Under the pieces are notes generated by a model. The model had not been told where the DNA came from, did not search any database, and saw only the letters and a list, made by a program, of their open reading frames with translations. A stretch of DNA of 40,798 nt from Deltaproteobacteria bacterium (GTDB lineage: Bacteria > Desulfobacterota > Desulfobaccia > Desulfobaccales > 0-14-0-80-60-11): the NCBI GenBank assembly GCA_030655955.1, contig JAUSOZ010000012.1:1-40798 (forward strand), given 5' to 3'. This document shows, in pieces, positions 2,646 to 34,001 of the stretch. Each line of letters begins with the position of its first letter. Positions within the stretch are counted from its first letter, which is position 1. A program made the position numbers and the translations under genes.

Positions 2646-2889
2646 TCATGGGCCTTTGGTCCACCCGCAAATTATGAAAAGATGTGTAGGGCGGGCACTG
2701 CCCGCAGTTCCCGATCAGCAAGTGGTGCGTAGGACGCACCCTACAAAAAACTTTTCAGGACAGTCATTCATGGGCCTTGGGCCCACCCATAAGGCATGAA
2801 AGGTTTGGTGGGCGGGTCTCCCTGCCCGCCGCCTTTGGTGGCACAGGCTTCCAGCCTGTGCGCCGCACCGGCAAGATGCCGGTGCCACC
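2646..2889. repeat. Composite island of palindromic repeats
   Basis: Several short palindromes of the families seen all over this window are packed here. There are two copies of a CATGGGCC...CCACCC...ATGAAA(A/G)G unit (2647-2681 and 2768-2803) and GGGCGGG/CCCGCC hairpins (about 2686-2706 and 2808-2831). A GGTGCG...CGCACCCTAC hairpin lies at 2724-2744. A GGTGGCACAGGC/GCCTGTGC hairpin (2837-2861) is joined to GCACCGGC...GCCGGTGCCACC (2864-2889). No gene is visible in the island. Confidence 0.8.
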
Positions 2890-3035
2890 AAAAACTTTTT
2901 GGAACAGGTTTTAATTTAGGGCGGGGGGGCAAGTCAAGCCCACATTCCGGGTCCGACAATCGGGTGGGCTGGCGGAGGATCTCCGCCTGGATGGAGCGGT
3001 TTTTCTCTTAAGGCGGAGAACCCCGCCCGGATCAC

Positions 3036-3425
3036 TCAGGACGGGGGCTTGCCGTTATCCTCGGCCAGCAACCTGGTGAGGACGGGCAGAAGTTCCGTTT
3101 GGACCTTGCGCTTGGGCACATAGGCGCTGACCCCGGCCGCGGCCGCGCCAGCCCTATGGGCCTCATCGTCATAAATGGTGAGCATCACCACCCGGGTTTC
3201 GGGCACCGCCGCTTTGATGCCCTGCGCGGCTTCGATGCCGCTCATGCCGGGAAGGCCGATATCCATGATGACCAGACAAGGAGACATGGTTTGGGCCACG
3301 GTGATCGCTTCTTCGCCGCTTTTGGCTTCCAGCAACTGGTAGTGCGGGAACGATAGTTCCAGCCATTCCCGCAGCGATTGGCGCACACCTTGGTGATCCT
3401 CCACAATCAGGATATGAGGACTCAT
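3036..3425 (-). CDS. Receiver-only response regulator
   Basis: 129 residues forming one complete CheY-like receiver domain and nothing else. Visible motifs are acidic Glu9-Asp10, the phospho-acceptor Asp55 in MDIGLPG, Thr83 and Lys105 (YVPK). The sequence resembles NarL/FixJ-type receivers, which normally carry a C-terminal LuxR helix-turn-helix, but the protein stops after AEDNGKPPS and no DNA-binding domain follows in any frame. It is therefore a single-domain regulator or an output-less derivative. The nearest upstream gene on the same strand is a NarX-type histidine kinase (3752-7111), its likely partner, although 326 bases of palindromic repeats separate them. ATG start with AAGGA upstream. 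Confidence 0.85.
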   Translation of the reverse strand: MSPHILIVEDHQGVRQSLREWLELSFPHYQLLEAKSGEEAITVAQTMSPCLVIMDIGLPGMSGIEAAQGIKAAVPETRVVMLTIYDDEAHRAGAAAAGVSAYVPKRKVQTELLPVLTRLLAEDNGKPPS

Positions 3426-3465
3426 AGTTATTCCTTATTTTCTCAGAGATTTTATCATTTCAGTT

Positions 3466-3683
3466 ATTCATGGGCCTTCGGCTCACCCGAAAAACATGAA
3501 AAGTTCGTGGGGCGGGCGTCCCGCCCGCCATGTTGGTGCGCCGGGCGCACCCTACACCTGCACAGGCTGGAAAGCCTGTGCCACCACCTTAGATGGTGGG
3601 GCGGGCCTCCGTGCCCGCCGCCGTTGGAGGCACAGGTTTTCAACCCGTTACCCACACCGGAAAGATACCAGTGCCACCAAAGA
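3466..3683. repeat. Palindromic repeat island between kinase and regulator genes
   Basis: The 326-base gap between the histidine kinase and its putative regulator is almost entirely repeats: a CATGGGCCTTCGGCTCACCC unit with ATGAAAAG (3468-3501), GGGCGGG/CCCGCC hairpins, a GGTGCG...CGCACCCTAC hairpin (about 3534-3555), and two GCACAGGC/GCCTGTGCCACC-type hairpins (3557-3586 and about 3626-3683). The order resembles the islands at 2646-2889 and 33450-33903, so the composite looks like a recurring unit. Confidence 0.8.
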
Positions 3684-3751
3684 CTTTTCGGAACAGGGTT
3701 TGAGCCCGTTCCAGACCTCCGCCTGGGCATCGGCCAGGAACCCAGTGAGGC

Positions 3752-20932: not shown

Positions 20933-21340
20933 GATATGGTGCCCAAGCAGAGCTTGGGCCGGAAATTGCATGCCCAAGCAGGAGCTTGGGAACGAGATAA
21001 AAAAGGAGGGCCGCTGGCGGCCCTCCTTCTATTTAGGCTTACGGGGTTTGGGGTCGGCCCGGAGGCCGAGGCATTATCATCCCTGGTTCCCAAGCTCCAG
21101 CTTGGGAACCCTATTGGGCGCCAAGCTCTGCTTGGCAAAGCCGATGAGAACCATACGTCTCCCAACTTACGATATGGTGCCCAAGCAGAGCTTGGGCCGA
21201 GAATTGCGTTCCCAAGCAGGAGCTTGGGAACGAGATAAAAGCAGGGGTTTGGGAACGAGGGAAAAATGGGGTGAAAGACCAGGGACGGCCGATGGATGTC
21301 GGCCCCGGGTGAGGGCGGACATGCAGGTCCGCCCCTACGG
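20933..21340. repeat. CCAAGC...GCTTGG repeat island with a 70-base direct repeat
   Basis: Two copies of a 70-base unit, at 20933-21002 and 21171-21240, differ at about five positions. Each begins GATATGGTGCCCAAGC and contains two CCCAAGC(A)...GCTTGGG hairpins and ends AACGAGATAAAA. A third, differently arranged pair (GGTTCCCAAGC/GCTTGGGAACC and CCAAGC/GCTTGG) lies at 21084-21136, and a GGGCGGAC/GTCCGCCCCTAC hairpin at 21312-21338. No protein gene is supported between 20837 and 21520. Confidence 0.82.
21003..21028 (+). terminator. Possible terminator downstream of surE
   Basis: GGAGGGCCGC and GCGGCCCTCC form a 10-bp stem with a 2-base apex followed by TTCTATTT. The T-run is imperfect and the hairpin is 170 bases from the surE stop. 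Confidence 0.5.
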
Positions 21341-21520: not shown

Positions 21521-24046
21521 TTACTCGGTATAACCTTTCAAGATTTTGGGAAGATGCTCCGGGGACAAGCGACCGAAGGTATCATCGTTGATGCGCACGG
21601 CCGGGGCCAGGGCGCAGCAACCGATGCAGCGCACCGGCTCCAGGGAGAACAGCATGTCCTCGGTGGTGCCGCCGGATTTAATCTTCAACTCTCTTTCCAA
21701 ACGCTCCAAGAGCCGGGGAGAGCCTTTGACAAAGCAGCCGGTGCCCAGGCAGACACTGACGATGTATTTGCCTCGGGGCACCAGGCTGAAGGCATTGTAG
21801 AAGGTGGCAACCCGCAGGATCTCCGCCATGGGCAGGCGCAGTTCGTCCGCCACATGCTCCAGCGCCGGCCGGGGCAGATAGTTGAAGCTGCGATTGATGC
21901 CCAGCAAAACGGGCAGCATATTGCCGCGCTCTTCCCGATATTTATTTAAAATAGCGCCCACGGTCGCTTCATCAGCGGGATTGTCATAAGCGCTGCGCTC
22001 TTTCAGCTTCTGTTGCACCACCGCGGTCGGGGCCTTATAGACCGAGGAGGTTCCGGGAGCGCCCAGTTTCTCCAGGCAATCCGAATAGCAATTCAAACAA
22101 CGGGTGGCTTCCGCCTGGGCCGTTTCCTGGGTAAAGCCTGTGGCAATTTCGTCAAAACAGGAGCAGGTATATTCCGGCGGCAACGTCGGCATCTCCGCCC
22201 GGGGGTGGACCACCCCGCCCACCGGGAAGGTCTTGGGACGATGGTGGCGTTTCCGCTTTTTGATGCGGCCTTCCTTCTGGTCGAGTCTCCGGAGGTAGCG
22301 ATCGATGGATACCGCCGCCTTTTCGCCGTCGCCGATGGCGCCCACGGCAATCCACGGTCCGGTTTGCACGTCGCCGGCCGCGAAGACCCCGGGAAGGTTG
22401 GTCTCAAAAGTGATTTCGTCCACTTCAATGGTGCTCCACTTGGTGATCTCGAGGCCGGTGCCTTCAAAAATCGAGGTGTTCGCCCGCTGGCCGATGGCGG
22501 GGATGATCATGTCCACATCGAGTATAAAATTGGAGCCCTCCATCGGGACCGGACGGCGGCGACCCGATTTATCGGGTTCGCCCAACTCCATCTTCTGGCA
22601 TTCCAAACCCGTAACCTTGCCGTCGGCACCGGTCTTCACGGACACCGGGGCCGTCAGGTAGAGGGGTTCTACGCCTTCGCACATGGCCTGCTCAACCTCG
22701 TGCTCAAAGGCCGGCATCTCGTCCCGGGTCCGCCGGTAAACGATGGTGACTTTGGAGCCCAGCCGCAAAGACGTACAGGCCACGTCGATGGCCACATTGC
22801 CGCCGCCAATGACCGCCACGTGTTTGCCCAGGGTAAAGGGCTCTTTCAGGGTGTGCTTCCGGAGGAAATCGACGCCCTGCATGACTCCGTCGGCTTCCTC
22901 GCCGGGGATCCCCAGCTTCATGCCCACGTGGCAACCTATCCCCAGGAACACGGCCTGAAAGCCGTCTTCTTTGAGGCTTTCCAGGGTGAAATCCCGGCCC
23001 ATGGCGGTGTTGTACTTCACTTCCACGCCTAAGCTCAGGATGTTGTCGATCTCTCGCTGTAAGACGTCGTGGGGGAGGCGATAGTCCGGGATGCCCACCT
23101 TCAGCATGCCCCCCAGCACCGGCAAGGCTTCGAAGATGGTGGGTTTGTAACCCGCCCGGGCCAGGTGGTAGGCGCATGACAGACCCGCGGGGCCGCCGCC
23201 GACGATGGCCACCTTCTCCGGGCGAGGCGCCGCCTTTTCCAGCCCCAACTCTTTCAAATCCACCTGGTCGGCGGCAAAGCGCTTGAGGTTGCAGATGGCC
23301 ACGGACTCATCCACGGTCTGGCGCCGGCACTCTTCCTCACAGGGATGGGGACAGATGCGTCCCAAGGTCCCGGGCAAGGGCAGCCGCTCCATAATGAGCT
23401 TGACCGCTTCCTTATCCTTGCCCTGGTTGACCAACTGCACATAGCCCTGGACATTGATCCCGGCCGGGCAGGTCAAGGTGCAGGGCGCTTGAATCTTGGC
23501 CACTTCGTGAATCCAGGCGGTGGGGCAGACAAACCCGCAAGCCCCGCATTCCTGGCAGACGTCCGACAATTCCCCGAAGGGGGTTAAAACCTCGCGTTTG
23601 GACCCGCGACCCACCATGCCGATGACGCTCAAGTTTTCAAGTTCAGAGCACACGCGGGTGCAGAGGTCGCAGAGGATACATTCGGTATCCCCCAACGGAA
23701 AGCTGGGTTCGGTTATCCCTAAATCCTGGGCGATGGACCGGAGAATGGGCAGGTTTGGACTCCGGGACCACAGAAGATCGATGACCAACCGGCGCGCCCG
23801 CAGCACCTTGGGGGCGTCGGTGACCACCTTGATCCCCTCGGCAACGGGATATGAGCAGGAGGCGGTAAGGTTGGTGCGACCACCGCTGGTGACCTCAACC
23901 ACACAAAGGCGGCAGCCGCCATACGGCTTGATCGCCTCGTAATAACAGAGGGTGGGAATCTTTATGCCTTCCTGGCGGGCGGCTTGCAGGATCGTGGTGC
24001 CCTCAGGAACTTCAACCAATTTGTCGTTGATCGTTAGTTTTACCAT
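21521..24046 (-). CDS. Fused NuoG-like ferredoxin / GltD-type NAD(P)H oxidoreductase / NuoE-like protein
   Basis: 841 residues, three modules in one chain. (1) 1-180: a [2Fe-2S] ferredoxin domain (Cys34, 45, 48, 64) and two CxxCxxCxxxC clusters (Cys123-133 and Cys164-174), as in NuoG/HydA N-termini. (2) About 185-660: a GltD/NfnB-type unit with its cysteines (189, 193, 232, 236, 240), FAD loop GGGPAG (283-288) and NAD(P)H loop GGGNVA (414-419), followed by RR in VYRRTRDEMPAF that favours NADPH. (3) About 670-841: a NuoE/HydC thioredoxin-like [2Fe-2S] domain (Cys766, 771, 807, 811). Twelve bases upstream ends a NuoF/HydB-like gene. Together they match the module set of Sporomusa-type bifurcating transhydrogenase (StnABC) in two genes. 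Function inferred; it could also serve a formate dehydrogenase. Confidence 0.85.
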   Translation of the reverse strand: MVKLTINDKLVEVPEGTTILQAARQEGIKIPTLCYYEAIKPYGGCRLCVVEVTSGGRTNLTASCSYPVAEGIKVVTDAPKVLRARRLVIDLLWSRSPNLPILRSIAQDLGITEPSFPLGDTECILCDLCTRVCSELENLSVIGMVGRGSKREVLTPFGELSDVCQECGACGFVCPTAWIHEVAKIQAPCTLTCPAGINVQGYVQLVNQGKDKEAVKLIMERLPLPGTLGRICPHPCEEECRRQTVDESVAICNLKRFAADQVDLKELGLEKAAPRPEKVAIVGGGPAGLSCAYHLARAGYKPTIFEALPVLGGMLKVGIPDYRLPHDVLQREIDNILSLGVEVKYNTAMGRDFTLESLKEDGFQAVFLGIGCHVGMKLGIPGEEADGVMQGVDFLRKHTLKEPFTLGKHVAVIGGGNVAIDVACTSLRLGSKVTIVYRRTRDEMPAFEHEVEQAMCEGVEPLYLTAPVSVKTGADGKVTGLECQKMELGEPDKSGRRRPVPMEGSNFILDVDMIIPAIGQRANTSIFEGTGLEITKWSTIEVDEITFETNLPGVFAAGDVQTGPWIAVGAIGDGEKAAVSIDRYLRRLDQKEGRIKKRKRHHRPKTFPVGGVVHPRAEMPTLPPEYTCSCFDEIATGFTQETAQAEATRCLNCYSDCLEKLGAPGTSSVYKAPTAVVQQKLKERSAYDNPADEATVGAILNKYREERGNMLPVLLGINRSFNYLPRPALEHVADELRLPMAEILRVATFYNAFSLVPRGKYIVSVCLGTGCFVKGSPRLLERLERELKIKSGGTTEDMLFSLEPVRCIGCCALAPAVRINDDTFGRLSPEHLPKILKGYTE

Positions 24047-24058
24047 TGTATGCCTCGT

Positions 24059-25969
24059 TTATTCGACAATGATGGCGTCAAACTTGCAGCGGTCAAAACA
24101 AGTTCCGCATTTGATGCATTTGTCTTGAAGAATTTTGTGGAGCTCTTTTTTGGCTCCCTCAACGGCTTCCACCGGACACACCAGACGGCAGCGCCCACAG
24201 CCGTTGCACTTCTCTTCGTCCACCGTAAAGGTGATCAGAGGCTTGCAAACCCTGGCAGGACATTTCTTCTGGGTAATGTGGGCCTCGTATTCCTCCCGGA
24301 AGTATTTTATGGTGGTGAGGACCGGATTGGGGGCGGTCTGCCCCAGCCCACACAAGGAGGCCTCCTTGATCGTTTCAGACATCTCAATCAGTTTGTCGAT
24401 GTCTTCCAGTTTGCCCTTCCCGGCGGTGATGTCCTCCAGCATTTCCAGGAGGCGCAAGGTCCCTTCCCGGCAAGGGGTGCATTTGCCGCAGGACTCCTCC
24501 ATGGTGAAGTCCAAAAAGTATTTGGCCACGTTCACCATGCAATCCCGCTCATCCATGACAATCATACCGCCGGAACCCATGATGGACCCCAAAGCTCCCA
24601 GGGATTCATACTCCACCGGGGTATCCAGGAATTTAGCTGGAATGCAGCCGCCGGAAGGCCCCCCGGTCTGGACGGCCTTAAAATTCTTTTTGCCCGCAAT
24701 GCCCCCGCCGATGTCAAAGATCATTTCCCGCAGGGTGGTGCCCAGGGGGATTTCCACCAGCCCGGCGTCAATTACCTTGCCCACCAGTGCAAAGACCGTG
24801 GTGCCCGGGCTTTTTTCGGTCCCAAAGGATTTATACCACTTGGCTCCCCGGGCCAGAATGGGTGCCACATGCGACCAGGTCTTGACGTTATTGATGATGG
24901 TGGGTTTTCCCCAAAGGCCGGATTGGGCCGGGAAGGGGGGACGCTGACGTGGTTCTCCCACCCGCCCTTCAATGGAGGCGATCAGTGCGGTTTCCTCGCC
25001 GCACACGAAGGCCCCGGCGCCCTCCCGGATTTTGAGCCGGAAGGAAAAATCCGTGCCAAAAATATTATCTCCCAAAAGCCCGCGGCTTTCGGCTTGCTCA
25101 ATGGCCTTCTCTAAACGTTTCAGCGCCAGGGGATATTCGGCCCGGCAGTAAACATAGCCTTCCTTGGCGCCCACGGCATATGCGCCGATAGCCATCCCCT
25201 CTACGACCGCATGCGGATCGCCTTCCAGGATGCCCCGGTCCATAAAGGCCCCCGGGTCGCCTTCGTCGGCGTTGCAGATGACGTATTTCATGTCGGAGGC
25301 GTTATTATGGCAGAATTCCCACTTGAGGCCGGTGGGGAAGCCGCCGCCGCCCCGGCCCCGCAGCCCCGAATCCTTGACCAGGGCAATCACCTCTTTGGGG
25401 GTCATCTCCTTCAAGACCTTGTACAAGGCCTGATAGGCGCCCCGGCCAATAGCTTCCTCGATGCGCTCCGGATTAATGAAGCCGCAATTCCGCAGAGCGA
25501 TCTTTACCTGTTTTTTGAAAAACGGCACTTCCTCGTATTTGGGCACCTCCACCGACAACTGCGCCGGCTGGGAATCGGAGTAAACCTTAAGCTTCCCATC
25601 AATGAGCAACTCCTCCTGATCAATCCGGCACAGGAGGTTCTCCGGATAGATCTGGTCTGCCTTGATGGCCTCCACCAGGGCCTCCGCCTTCTCCACATTC
25701 ATGGCCTGATAAGTTAGGCGCACTCGGTCGGGATAGACCACATCCACCAGGGGCTCCCGCTGGCAAAAACCGATGCAGCCGGTCATTTCCAGCACTGCGT
25801 CCACCCCCAGCTCGGCAATTTTCTTGGCCAGGGCCTGGTAAACTTTATCGCCGCCCGCGGAAATGCCGCAGGTGGCCATCCCTACCATGATTTTAATTTT
25901 CTCGGGGTAAGTGAGCTTTACCCCCTCCGCTTTGACCGCCTGTAAGTCGTCCAGCGTATTAATCCTCAT
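24059..25969 (-). CDS. NuoF/HydB-like NADH-binding flavoprotein subunit
   Basis: 636 residues from the ATG at 25969 (AAAGGAC upstream; longer in-frame starts add non-family sequence). Domains: an N-terminal thioredoxin-like [2Fe-2S] domain (Cys34, Cys65, Cys69); the NuoF core with NADH/FMN loop GLRGRGGGGFPTGLKW (202-217) and GEETALIASIEG (324-335); the [4Fe-4S] site Cys494-x2-Cys-x2-Cys500 with Cys540; and a C-terminal 2[4Fe-4S] ferredoxin (Cys588-598 and Cys618-628). The extra CPARVC pair (570-575) between core and ferredoxin occurs in HydB-type bifurcating proteins. The family accepts electrons from NADH at FMN, and HydB-like members bifurcate with ferredoxin. It is the first gene of the operon with the 841-residue partner. 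Confidence 0.88.
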   Translation of the reverse strand: MRINTLDDLQAVKAEGVKLTYPEKIKIMVGMATCGISAGGDKVYQALAKKIAELGVDAVLEMTGCIGFCQREPLVDVVYPDRVRLTYQAMNVEKAEALVEAIKADQIYPENLLCRIDQEELLIDGKLKVYSDSQPAQLSVEVPKYEEVPFFKKQVKIALRNCGFINPERIEEAIGRGAYQALYKVLKEMTPKEVIALVKDSGLRGRGGGGFPTGLKWEFCHNNASDMKYVICNADEGDPGAFMDRGILEGDPHAVVEGMAIGAYAVGAKEGYVYCRAEYPLALKRLEKAIEQAESRGLLGDNIFGTDFSFRLKIREGAGAFVCGEETALIASIEGRVGEPRQRPPFPAQSGLWGKPTIINNVKTWSHVAPILARGAKWYKSFGTEKSPGTTVFALVGKVIDAGLVEIPLGTTLREMIFDIGGGIAGKKNFKAVQTGGPSGGCIPAKFLDTPVEYESLGALGSIMGSGGMIVMDERDCMVNVAKYFLDFTMEESCGKCTPCREGTLRLLEMLEDITAGKGKLEDIDKLIEMSETIKEASLCGLGQTAPNPVLTTIKYFREEYEAHITQKKCPARVCKPLITFTVDEEKCNGCGRCRLVCPVEAVEGAKKELHKILQDKCIKCGTCFDRCKFDAIIVE

Positions 25970-26376
25970 GATCCAGTCCTTTTTGCCGTTATTTCTTTCA
26001 TTGTGGGTATGCGAAATTATCCACCAAACGGGCTGGGCCAAGCCCCACTTGGTCGTTCCCTCGTTAACCTGCTGCTTTGATCAGAGATAGTACCTGGTCA
26101 TCCCCGTAAAGGGACAATGGGATGGAATTTACCCGGGTGTCCCAGGGGTCCGAGGTCCTTGCAGATTGGGGCCGGTGAGGCCGCCTTGCCGGGCATACAA
26201 CTCAGGAGGCTGCCGTCATGCCGCGGCCGGCTCCAGTCTGGACCTTCCTTGGTCATTTTTGCATCGTCTGTTTTTTACCACGACCGGAGGGAAAGACGCA
26301 AGTGATAAATATCACAAATAGGGAGAAAAATCACCGCAGCCTGACCAGCCGTTGAAACCAGCGCCAACAAAGTCAA
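25970..26376. other. Gene-free leader region of the flavoprotein operon
   Basis: About 400 bases upstream of the NuoF/HydB-like gene, running to the brnA terminator. No protein gene is supported. A perfect GTGATA-AA-TATCAC palindrome (26302-26315) is the only clear regulatory-looking element. I cannot place a convincing -35/-10 pair for the minus strand. Confidence 0.45.
26302..26315. promoter_or_regulatory. CRP/FNR-family-like palindrome
   Basis: A perfect 14-base palindrome, GTGATAAATATCAC. Read on the minus strand it is TTGTGA-N6-TCACTT, close to the TGTGA-N6-TCACA pattern of CRP/FNR relatives and to the TTGTGA-N6-TCACAA site described for HcpR in sulfate reducers. It lies about 330 bases upstream of the flavoprotein operon start. 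Confidence 0.45.
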
Positions 26377-26455
26377 GAAAAAAACCGGTTTCCCCAGGCG
26401 CTGACCCGGGGAAGCCGGTTTGGTATTCATGTCTGGTGCGCGGTGCGCACCCTAC
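26377..26455 (-). repeat. Terminator-palindrome module, copy 1 (3' end of brnA)
   Basis: On the minus strand a TAGGGTGCG...GCGCACC palindrome (26435-26454) is followed by CCGGCTTCCCCGGG / CCTGGGGAAACCGG (26384-26417), a long stem, and seven T residues. The first TAG is the in-frame brnA stop codon. The same arrangement, about 90 percent identical by eye, occurs at 27051-27132 behind fhs. Confidence 0.85.
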
Positions 26456-26718
26456 GCCTGGGCTTCCTTGTAGGCCCGCAGCACCGCGTTCATCCGGCTT
26501 TGATAGCCCTTGCCCTGAGCTCTGAACCAATCCAGCACTTCCCGATCCACCCGGATAGTGATCTGGGCCTTGGGCTCCGCCCGCTTGACCACCGCTTTGG
26601 ACCAGAACTCCTCCCCTAAAGTGCTCAGGTCAGGAATCTCGGAATAATCGATATCTTTATCCTTCAGGGCATCAATCCTGGCCAAGTCGCTTTTGATAGA
26701 TTGCTTGCTCCCTCGCAT
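26452..26718 (-). CDS. brnA: BrnA-family antitoxin
   Basis: 88 residues. The C-terminal half, AQITIRVDREVLDWFRAQGK followed by GYQSRMNAVLRAYKEAQA, is the ribbon-helix-helix DNA-binding region of BrnA/DUF4415 antitoxins; the N-terminal half is the charged toxin-binding part. BrnA neutralises the BrnT ribonuclease, and the BrnA-BrnT complex represses its own promoter. The ATG at 26718 has GAGGAAAG just upstream and lies inside the brnT reading frame, overlapping it by 47 bases, so the antitoxin is the second gene, as usual for brnTA. Its stop codon TAG is the first triplet of a TAGGGTGCG palindrome. Confidence 0.88.
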   Translation of the reverse strand: MRGSKQSIKSDLARIDALKDKDIDYSEIPDLSTLGEEFWSKAVVKRAEPKAQITIRVDREVLDWFRAQGKGYQSRMNAVLRAYKEAQA

Positions 26719-26950
26719 TGGCTTTCCTCATAGAAATTATTCGGGTGTGTTCTCCCCTGGCGACGTGCACCACAACCACTACCCGCCCCGACAACTTTCC
26801 CAAGGTAATGAGACGATCTTCCCCATAATCATAGCGCTCATCGGGGATGGTGATGGTGTCTCCGGCCAAGACTTGCCTGGCGTCGTCAAAAGAGAGACCA
26901 TGCTTCTGGAGATTTGCCCGGCTTTTTTCCTCATCCCATTCCACCGGCAT
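26672..26950 (-). CDS. brnT: BrnT-family toxin (mRNA interferase)
   Basis: 92 residues, opening VEWDEEKSRANLQKHGLSFD, the hallmark of BrnT (DUF497), with ITIPDERYDYGEDRLITLGK and HTRIISMRKANAREQAIYQ. BrnT folds like RelE and cleaves RNA; the conserved R and H/Y/E-type positions of the family appear intact. The only sensible start is the ATG at 26950, and a near-consensus promoter ends 5 bases ahead of it, so the message is predicted to be leaderless or nearly so. It forms an overlapping pair with brnA. The pair is flanked by two similar terminator-palindrome modules. Confidence 0.88.
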   Translation of the reverse strand: MPVEWDEEKSRANLQKHGLSFDDARQVLAGDTITIPDERYDYGEDRLITLGKLSGRVVVVVHVARGEHTRIISMRKANAREQAIYQKRLGQD

Positions 26951-26955
26951 AAAAT

Positions 26956-26984
26956 ATTGTAACTACATTATGTAACTCTGTCAA
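26956..26984 (-). promoter_or_regulatory. brnTA promoter with palindrome in the spacer
   Basis: On the minus strand TTGACA (26979-26984), a 17-base spacer and TACAAT (26956-26961). Inside the spacer lies the 11-base palindrome TACAT-A-ATGTA (26964-26974), well placed for BrnA autorepression. Expected initiation (about 26949) coincides with the brnT ATG at 26948-26950. Confidence 0.65.
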
Positions 26985-27050
26985 ACCTTATGGTCTGGAA
27001 GCTCCAGTTTGTTGAAAGACTGTAGGGAGGGATGCGCCTAAGTCTTCTCT

Positions 27051-27132
27051 AAAAAAAAACCGGCTTCCCCAGGCGCTAACCCGGGGAAGCCGGTTTGATG
27101 GTTCATGTCTGGTGCGTAGAACGCACCCTACA
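27051..27132 (-). repeat. Terminator-palindrome module, copy 2 (3' end of fhs)
   Basis: On the minus strand TAGGGTGCG...CGCACC (27111-27130) begins 8 bases after the fhs stop. A long stem follows, CCGGCTTCCCCGGG / CCTGGGGAAGCCGG (27060-27093), with nine T residues: a strong intrinsic terminator. It is a near copy of 26377-26455. Confidence 0.85.
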
Positions 27133-27138
27133 GTTTAC

Positions 27139-28923
27139 TTAGAACAGGCCAGTCACGGTGCCTTTCTTGACATCCACGTCGACGCGGCGGAAGGCCGGGT
27201 CGGAACCGGTGCCGGGCATCAGCGAGATGGCGCCGCAGACCGGGCAGATGAACTTGGCGCCGCCGTAGACCAGGAAGTCCCGGACGGGCAGCTTCCAGCC
27301 TTTGGGGGTGCCTTTCTTGGTGGGATCGGCGGTCAGGCTCAAGTGCGTCTTCACCATCATGGTGGCGTATTCGTTGTACTTGGGATCCGCTTCAAACTTT
27401 TTGGCCTTGGCCACGGCTTCGGGGGCGAAGTCAACGCCATCGGCGCCGTACACTTCCTTGGCGATCATCTCAACGCGCTGCCGCAGCGGCATCTCATTGG
27501 GATAGAGGAACTTGAATTTCGGCTTGTCTTTGCAGGCCTCGATGACCGCATCGGCAAACTCCAGGGCGCCTTCGCCGCCATACTGCCAGTGCTTGGACAC
27601 CGCTACCCGGGCGCCTTCCGCCTCGCAGGCCCGGCGAATCACCTGGTGCTCTTCGTCGGAATCGAAATGGAAGCCGTTGATGCAGACCACCGGGTTGATA
27701 CCGGCCTTCTTGATGGTGCGGACGTGGTGCACCGCATTCTGCACACCCTCTTCCAGCCAAGCCATGGTCTCTTTCCCGGAGGAGAAGTATTGCGGGGGGA
27801 CCGGTTTGCCCGGAGGACACGGCAGGGCGCCGGCGTTGACGCCATGATGCTTCAGGCCCCGGACGGTGGCGGTAAGGACCGACACGTTGGGAATGAGGCC
27901 GCTGAAACGGCATTTGACGTTCCAGAACTTCTCAAAGCCGATGTCGGCGCCGAATCCGGACTCGGTGATATGGTAGTCAAACAGCTTCAGACCGATCTGG
28001 TCGGCGACGATGGAGGACTGGCCCACGGCGATGTTGGCGAAGGGGCCGGCGTGCACGAAGCAGGGCTGGCCTTCCACGGTCTGCATCAGGGTGGGGTTGA
28101 TGGAGGGCAGCATCCAGGCGGTCATGGCATTGCCGACTTCCAGGTCGCCGGTGGTGACGGGGTTGCCCTTCTTATCGTAGGCTACTACCATGTTGTTCAG
28201 GCGGGTGCGCAGGTCTTCCAGAGAAGTAAATACGCTCAGGATGGCCATGACTTCCGAGGACACCGCAATACCGAAGGAGGACTTCATCATGAAGCCGTCC
28301 ATCTTGCCGCCCATGCCGATGATGATGTGGCGGAGGGCCTGGCCGCAGTAGTCCATGATCCAGCCCATTTCGAAGTTTTTGGGATCGATGTTCAGGCGCT
28401 TCAGGTTCCGCTTGGCCAGCTGGGCGTCGTCATAGTTGAACTCGTGCTGCAGCCGGGCAGTGGCGGCCACCATGGCCAGGTTGTGGGCGTTCATGATGTT
28501 GTTGATGTCGCCGGTGAGGCCCAGGGAGAACTCGGTCATGGGGATCAGCAGCGAAATGCCGCCGCCCGCCGCGGTACCCTTGACGTTCATGGTGGGGCCG
28601 CCGGAAGGCTGGCGGATGCAGCCGCCCACGTTCACGCCCCGTTTGCCCAGGCCCTCGATCAGGCCCATGGAGGTGGTGGATTTGCCTTCGCCCAGGGGGG
28701 TGGGGGTGATGGCGGTGACTTCGATGTACTTGCCGTCGGGTTTGCTCTTCAGGCGGTTCAGGCACTTCATGTAGTCAACGCGGCCGATCTTCTGGCCATG
28801 AGGGATGCGCTCATCATTGGGGATTTCCAGCTTATCGCACATCTTGTCAAAGGGAATCATCTCCGCTTCGGCGATTTCAGCAATCTGCCAATCTTTCTGT
28901 TTAACCGGATCATACTTCGCCAT
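27139..28923 (-). CDS. fhs: Formate-tetrahydrofolate ligase (formyl-THF synthetase)
   Basis: 594 residues from the ATG with AAGGAGG 8 bases upstream; an in-frame upstream extension to 28998 is rejected. The enzyme joins formate to tetrahydrofolate using ATP, the second step of the Wood-Ljungdahl methyl branch, and runs in reverse in acetate or methyl oxidisers. The ATP-binding [11 protein letters not shown] (73-83) and KGTAAGGG motifs are clear, as is [16 protein letters not shown]. It is somewhat longer than the usual 556 residues, with an extended N-terminus and a C-terminal CPVCG segment. It is monocistronic, divergent from metV-metF, with its own promoter (29070-29098) and terminator. Confidence 0.95.
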
Positions 28924-33449: not shown

Positions 33450-33903
33450 TGAACATGAGCCTGCGGCTCAATCAGGAAGCATAAGAAAGGTTTGGTGGCA
33501 CAGCCTTTCCAGGCTGTGCACGACTAACCTGCTTTCTTGACACAGGCTGGAAAGCCTGTGCCACCGATTTAAAGAATTTTTCAGGACAGTTCCTCATGGG
33601 TGCCCTTTGGCTCACCCGCAAAGCATGAAAAGATTCAGTGGGGCGGGCGTCCGCACCCGCCACTCAACTGGATGGATGGTGCTACATTAAGCTTTGGTGG
33701 CACAGGCTTCCAGCCTGTGCACCGTACCGGCAAGATGCCGGTGCTCCCTAAAAACTTTTGTTTCTGGTTCCCAAGCTCCAGCTTGGGAACCCCATTGCAG
33801 GCAAAGCTCCTGCTTGGCGAGAGAATCATCTATTTATTGCGCCATATGCCCCAAGCAGGAGCTTGGGGGGAAATTTACGTTCCCAAGCAGGAGCTTGGGA
33901 ACG
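33450..33903. repeat. Large palindromic repeat island before trxA
   Basis: A 640-base gap (33426-34069) filled largely with repeats. In order: an ATGAGCC...GGCTCA unit with GCATAAGAAAGG; GGTGGCACAGCC/GGCTGTGC (about 33493-33518); ACAGGC/GCCTGTGCCACC (about 33541-33564). Next come a CATGGGTGCCC...GGCTCACCC unit with GCATGAAAAG (33594-33631), GGGCGGGCG...CCCGCC, and a double GGTGGCACAGGC/GCCTGTGC plus GTACCGGC...GCCGGTGC unit (33697-33743). Last are GGTTCCCAAGC/GCTTGGGAACC (33766-33791) and CCCAAGC...GCTTGGG hairpins up to 33903. Confidence 0.8.
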
Positions 33904-34001
33904 AGGGAAAGGCGGGTTGCCCGGCCCTTTCCCGGACGGTCCCCTGGTGGGGCCGGGACCCGGTCGGGAGAGTCTTGGCGGTCCAGACCCCTTAAAAGTC
34001 A

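Follow-up and report, generated by a model that had tools for sequence, protein, structure and literature searches.

A REP and terminator module found twice around a brnTA toxin-antitoxin pair behind fhs, and its probable origin by local copying

The brnTA pair and its flanking modules

We analysed a stretch of 40,798 nucleotides (the window), in which a small toxin-antitoxin operon, brnTA, lies between fhs and a downstream metabolic operon, with a short module on either side of it. The features of the locus are:

24059..25969, minus strand: gene for a NuoF-like subunit, the first gene of the downstream operon
26377..26455, minus strand: brnA-side module, a copy of the fhs-side module; its left flank is orthologous to the second terminator of relative G002
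26382..26421, minus strand: second copy of the terminator hairpin, 3' of brnA
26435..26455, minus strand: GTAG-type REP on the brnA side (GTAGGGTGCGCACCGCGCACC), whose TAG (26452-26454) is the brnA stop codon
26452..26718, minus strand: brnA, antitoxin of 88 aa (PF14384, E 4e-18)
26672..26950, minus strand: brnT, toxin of 92 aa, overlapping brnA (PF04365, E 2e-28)
26956..26984, minus strand: brnT promoter-like site TTGACA-17-TACAAT over a TACATAATGTA palindrome, with similar sequence in relatives
27051..27132, minus strand: fhs-side module of REP palindrome, spacer and intrinsic terminator, the proposed donor copy
27057..27096, minus strand: fhs intrinsic terminator hairpin, then a T run
27111..27131, minus strand: GTAG-type REP on the fhs side (GTAGGGTGCGTTCTACGCACC), one of about 245 genome copies
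27139..28923, minus strand: fhs, formate-tetrahydrofolate ligase of 594 aa (PF01268, NF010032)

Both the BrnT and the BrnA domain scored above the Pfam cut-off, in one operon of overlapping ORFs with the toxin gene first, and the identities that the first-pass annotation had given to brnT, brnA and fhs were borne out (PF04365, PF14384 and PF01268). The pair resembles BrnTA type II toxin-antitoxin systems in this gene order, in the overlapping antitoxin and in a promoter-like site of its own placed on a palindrome, which from its position is a candidate BrnA operator. It differs in its antitoxin end, which is two codons shorter (88 aa, ending at the TAG of the REP, versus 90 aa in relatives), and is otherwise unremarkable; truncated, frameshifted or interrupted versions of the pair occur in some relatives. 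Another BrnT-type gene was seen on a different contig of the same genome (G000:C204:11211-11414).

Alignment of the two copies confirmed that modules of ~79 bp, near-identical and in the same orientation as previously annotated, flank brnTA at a spacing of 675-676 bp. The match falls into two blocks, one of 50 nt at 92% identity (26373-26422 against 27048-27097) and one of 30 nt at 87% (26426-26455 against 27102-27131), and it amounts to 86% over the full module. Read along the minus strand, on which fhs and brnTA also lie, each module consists of a REP palindrome (TAGGGTGCG), a spacer, a G+C-rich hairpin and a T run. Minus-strand folding gave -49.8 kcal/mol (z -7.6) and -42.1 kcal/mol (z -5.9) for the two modules, values at which both are predicted to be strong terminators, in line with the strong T-run terminator annotated in each. 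Like intrinsic terminators, the modules have a stem of 17-18 pairs, rich in G+C, with a T run behind it; the difference is that here the genome has one and the same hairpin at two sites within 0.7 kb and at no other. An Rfam search returned sub-threshold matches only.

A pattern search of the whole genome found the terminator hairpin at 2 places, both of them the modules, and no other double-module site, while exact matches to the spacer TTCATGTCTGGTGCG were likewise confined to the two modules. Because spacer and terminator are unique to these two sites, the second module is a real copy, made as a block, and not a chance resemblance. Two independent landings of a REP were rejected as an origin, since the modules share the spacer exactly and the terminator nearly so, and both are absent from the rest of the genome. 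The suggested duplication of the fhs terminator module is thus supported.

GTAG REP elements and RAYT

The palindrome half of the module behaves differently, as it is dispersed throughout the genome. The core GGTGCG-N5-CGCACC occurs 11 times in the window, where 0.23 occurrences were expected, and the longer palindrome pattern with CTAC gave 245 matches (at most 1 mismatch) in the 3.5 Mb searched, versus 0 for a reversed-pattern control; exact matches that include GTAG numbered 201. An ORF on another contig (L144, ORF 1360-1908) encodes a RAYT protein, a REP-associated tyrosine transposase (NF047646, E 6e-58), and is bounded on both sides by the same REPs on both strands, in inverted orientation. 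By its sequence the palindrome is a GTAG REP as PMC2817692 and PMC3733652 use the term. The likeness to the GTAG REP/RAYT REPtrons of these two studies extends to the ~20-bp palindrome, the terminal GTAG, the hundreds of copies, the RAYT gene between the same repeats and the TAG that serves as a neighbouring ORF's stop codon. GTAG REP ends are reported to provide flanking ORFs often with their TAG stops (PMC3733652), and brnA is such a case. Unlike those elements, the REP in the window sits between a stop codon and a terminator and has been duplicated together with non-REP sequence. Recurrence of the module at many unrelated genes, which would make the bracketing coincidental, is therefore seen for its palindrome half (~245 copies) and not for its terminator half (two places). 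Other dispersed palindromic repeats in the window belong to CCCAAGCAGGAGCTTGGG and GGCACAGGCTTCCAGCCTGTG types (20933-21240 and 33842-33911; 2833-3699 and 33692-33769).

With a RAYT gene and so many REPs in one genome, it is conceivable that these moved brnTA and the terminator as one composite unit. We consider this very improbable: the modules are direct and not inverted repeats, their spacer and terminator were part of no other REP copy seen, brnTA was not seen moving with modules in relatives, and a module-brnTA-module arrangement occurs nowhere else in the genome. That the bracketed unit is confined to this site, and that in relatives brnTA stays in place, mostly with no second module, also argues against an excisable direct-repeat cassette; a putative excision by recombination between the module copies is physically possible.

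The fhs site in related genomes

The search for brnTA covered 59 relatives and then 22 family genomes, all of the compared genomes being drafts. brnTA DNA or its remains were found in eight other family genomes at 82-93% identity, so that, with the window, nine genomes under four genus labels (g1, g3, g7, g8) carry it. The pair lies directly 3' of fhs and in the same orientation in six of them (G001, G003, G010, G017, G019 and G021), although brnT of G019 appears frameshifted, matching as two tblastn pieces. G002 has brnA and a truncated brnT at the same place behind fhs, and in G005 the brnA remains and the fhs end are on separate contigs, with a transposase ORF at the end of the fhs-side contig. 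This ORF (L156 1-700, PF05598) lies close to the fhs terminator, at the expected position of brnT. Ordering the events in time by fhs and brnTA identities was abandoned, as these range mostly over 83-93% across genomes, too compressed a range to give an order.

Sites with fhs and no brnTA include those of G004, G006, G007, G009, G011, G012, G013, G014, G018 and G020. The single-module empty sites that the first-pass annotation had predicted thus exist (G009, G020, G014 and others), but the module there is independent of brnTA. At these sites the pair may have been lost or may never have been present, and the single modules fit either history; G014 retains sequence resembling the brnT promoter region. 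In G015 (L159 241-2010), two tandem genes, ~95% identical and encoding a 245-aa protein, are each followed by an fhs-like terminator and lie next to a stretch that, by eye, looks like the final codons of fhs. We did not accept this locus as a normal fhs site, as the short fhs-like tail was recognized by eye only and tblastn gave no Fhs match.

The terminator itself is conserved behind fhs. Every fhs 3' end compared has a hairpin resembling a terminator, its stem being of CCGGCTT type in nearly all of them, and relatives have a second hairpin between the fhs stop codon and the terminator, a REP in some genomes and a different palindrome in others. This two-hairpin layout is kept across the family, with or without brnTA. 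In the alignment, 87.8% of cells were paired, compared to 80.1% after shuffling, and changes on both sides of a pair were found in 27 cells versus 10.7. These counts are consistent with a conserved terminator structure, as support and not as a decisive test, because the alignment took in the brnA copy of the window and the structure was drawn from the window. We propose that the fhs-side module is old and native to fhs.

The second module has a much narrower distribution. Within the family genomes, the strict terminator pattern matched at no place other than the fhs site and the second terminator of G002, and when the stretch from brnA to the following gene was searched in the other brnTA genomes, no module rose above shuffled background except in G002, where it was clear, and in G021, where it was marginal (score 22 versus 21 shuffled). 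Degenerate second terminators in the remaining brnTA genomes were likewise dismissed. The first-pass annotation had read the direct repeats as the footprint of an insertion that brought brnTA in, either through recombination at the fhs terminator or through its duplication. Single-module sites lacking brnTA are what such an arrival predicts, and it would also accommodate the second related terminator further down in G002 and the related terminators that end each of the tandem genes of G015. Yet brnTA stands behind fhs in relatives of which only G002 has a clear second module, most of them, other genera included, having none; and at 86%, against at most 78% between orthologous modules, the two copies are too alike to date from the arrival of so widely shared a pair, unless conversion has intervened. 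We therefore regard such an arrival as quite unlikely.

In three relatives (G002, G019 and G021) brnA is followed by a hicAB-like pair that is missing in the window. HicA was above the cut-off in G021 (PF07927, 1.5e-10); the partner ORFs gave weak, sub-threshold Pfam matches only, and for this reason we call them hicB-like. The second terminator of G002 lies 3' of these ORFs, and positions 26268-26420 of the window match the G002 flank and second terminator at 88% over 154 columns. This common flank, together with the resemblance of the second hairpin to the first in both genomes, raises the alternative that the second module goes back to an old terminator which G002 also has, kept fhs-like within each genome by repeated gene conversion. 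The G002 second module is only 69% identical overall to its own fhs copy and has no REP, so the matched spacer and REP of the window would still need a recent copying event, and we hold this alternative to be unlikely.

Origin of the second module

The fhs modules of relatives are at most 77% identical to the fhs copy of the window and at most 78% to its brnA copy, compared to 86% between the two copies; together with the unique hairpin and spacer, this indicates that one module was copied from the other. By comparison with relatives, brnTA appears to have been at the site first and the repeat to have come later. We favor, with a probability of roughly two in three (0.68), a local event of recent date, in which recombination at REP and terminator homologies added a copy of the fhs module 3' of a brnTA pair already in place. 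The modules would then be ordinary intrinsic terminators with a REP in front, and brnTA an older resident behind fhs with its own promoter. In the lineage of the window, part of the fhs module, spacer plus terminator, would have been copied to a place some hundreds of bases further downstream, through ectopic recombination, gene conversion or template switching, of which we infer gene conversion or template switching between the REP and terminator homologies. The homologies used were likely a REP already present beside brnA and, at the opposite end, a related terminator that was there before. The event would have joined brnA straight to the REP, now the source of its stop codon, with the brnA/REP junction and the spacer and hairpin from the fhs side replacing whatever lay between, and it probably removed the hicAB-like pair still present in three relatives.

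We take the fhs copy to be the donor, and the copying to have run from fhs to the brnA side, because the place and the two-hairpin layout of the fhs copy are family-wide and those of the brnA copy are not. Since the sequences are short, the bases that inform on direction and mechanism are few. Between the two copies the REP loops differ (TAGAA / CGGTG), so the copying model needs a breakpoint inside the REP or a later conversion. G003, the closest genome by brnTA sequence, has no intermediate state, and none of the family genomes compared has brnTA-hicAB followed by an exact copy of the window module. As the hicAB-like pair is patchy (G002, G019, G021), its presence in the ancestor of the window, and hence its loss in this lineage, is presumptive. 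From their structure and the brnT promoter-like site, the modules appear to separate fhs, brnTA and the next operon transcriptionally, which would leave brnTA insulated from both metabolic operons.

The bracketing is real and is explained mainly by known kinds of element, mostly ordinary genome housekeeping; it also illustrates that, when a toxin-antitoxin pair lies between short direct repeats, these may wrongly be taken for the trace of an insertion. A broader and rather speculative idea is that in this family genes that arrive or are duplicated settle repeatedly on the 3' side of fhs and there gain a copy of the fhs terminator that insulates them from their neighbours, as might be the case in the window, G002 and G015. 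If true, terminator copying would be a simple route for bacteria to isolate newly placed genes transcriptionally. A literature search on terminator duplication around toxin-antitoxin pairs returned nothing pertinent as judged by title.

The operon behind the site varies as well. In many relatives it starts with an nfnA-like gene, and an NfnA-like query gave no match in the genome of the window. Here (21521-25969), and likewise in G017 and G012, it encodes a NuoF-like subunit and an 841-aa fusion of NuoG/GltD/NuoE type. One type of bifurcating transhydrogenase may thus have been replaced by another, the replacement being, as a guess, Stn-like. Upstream of the operon lies a palindromic site, CAAGTGATAAATATCACAA (26299-26317), which is kept in many relatives whichever operon follows and is a candidate regulator site.
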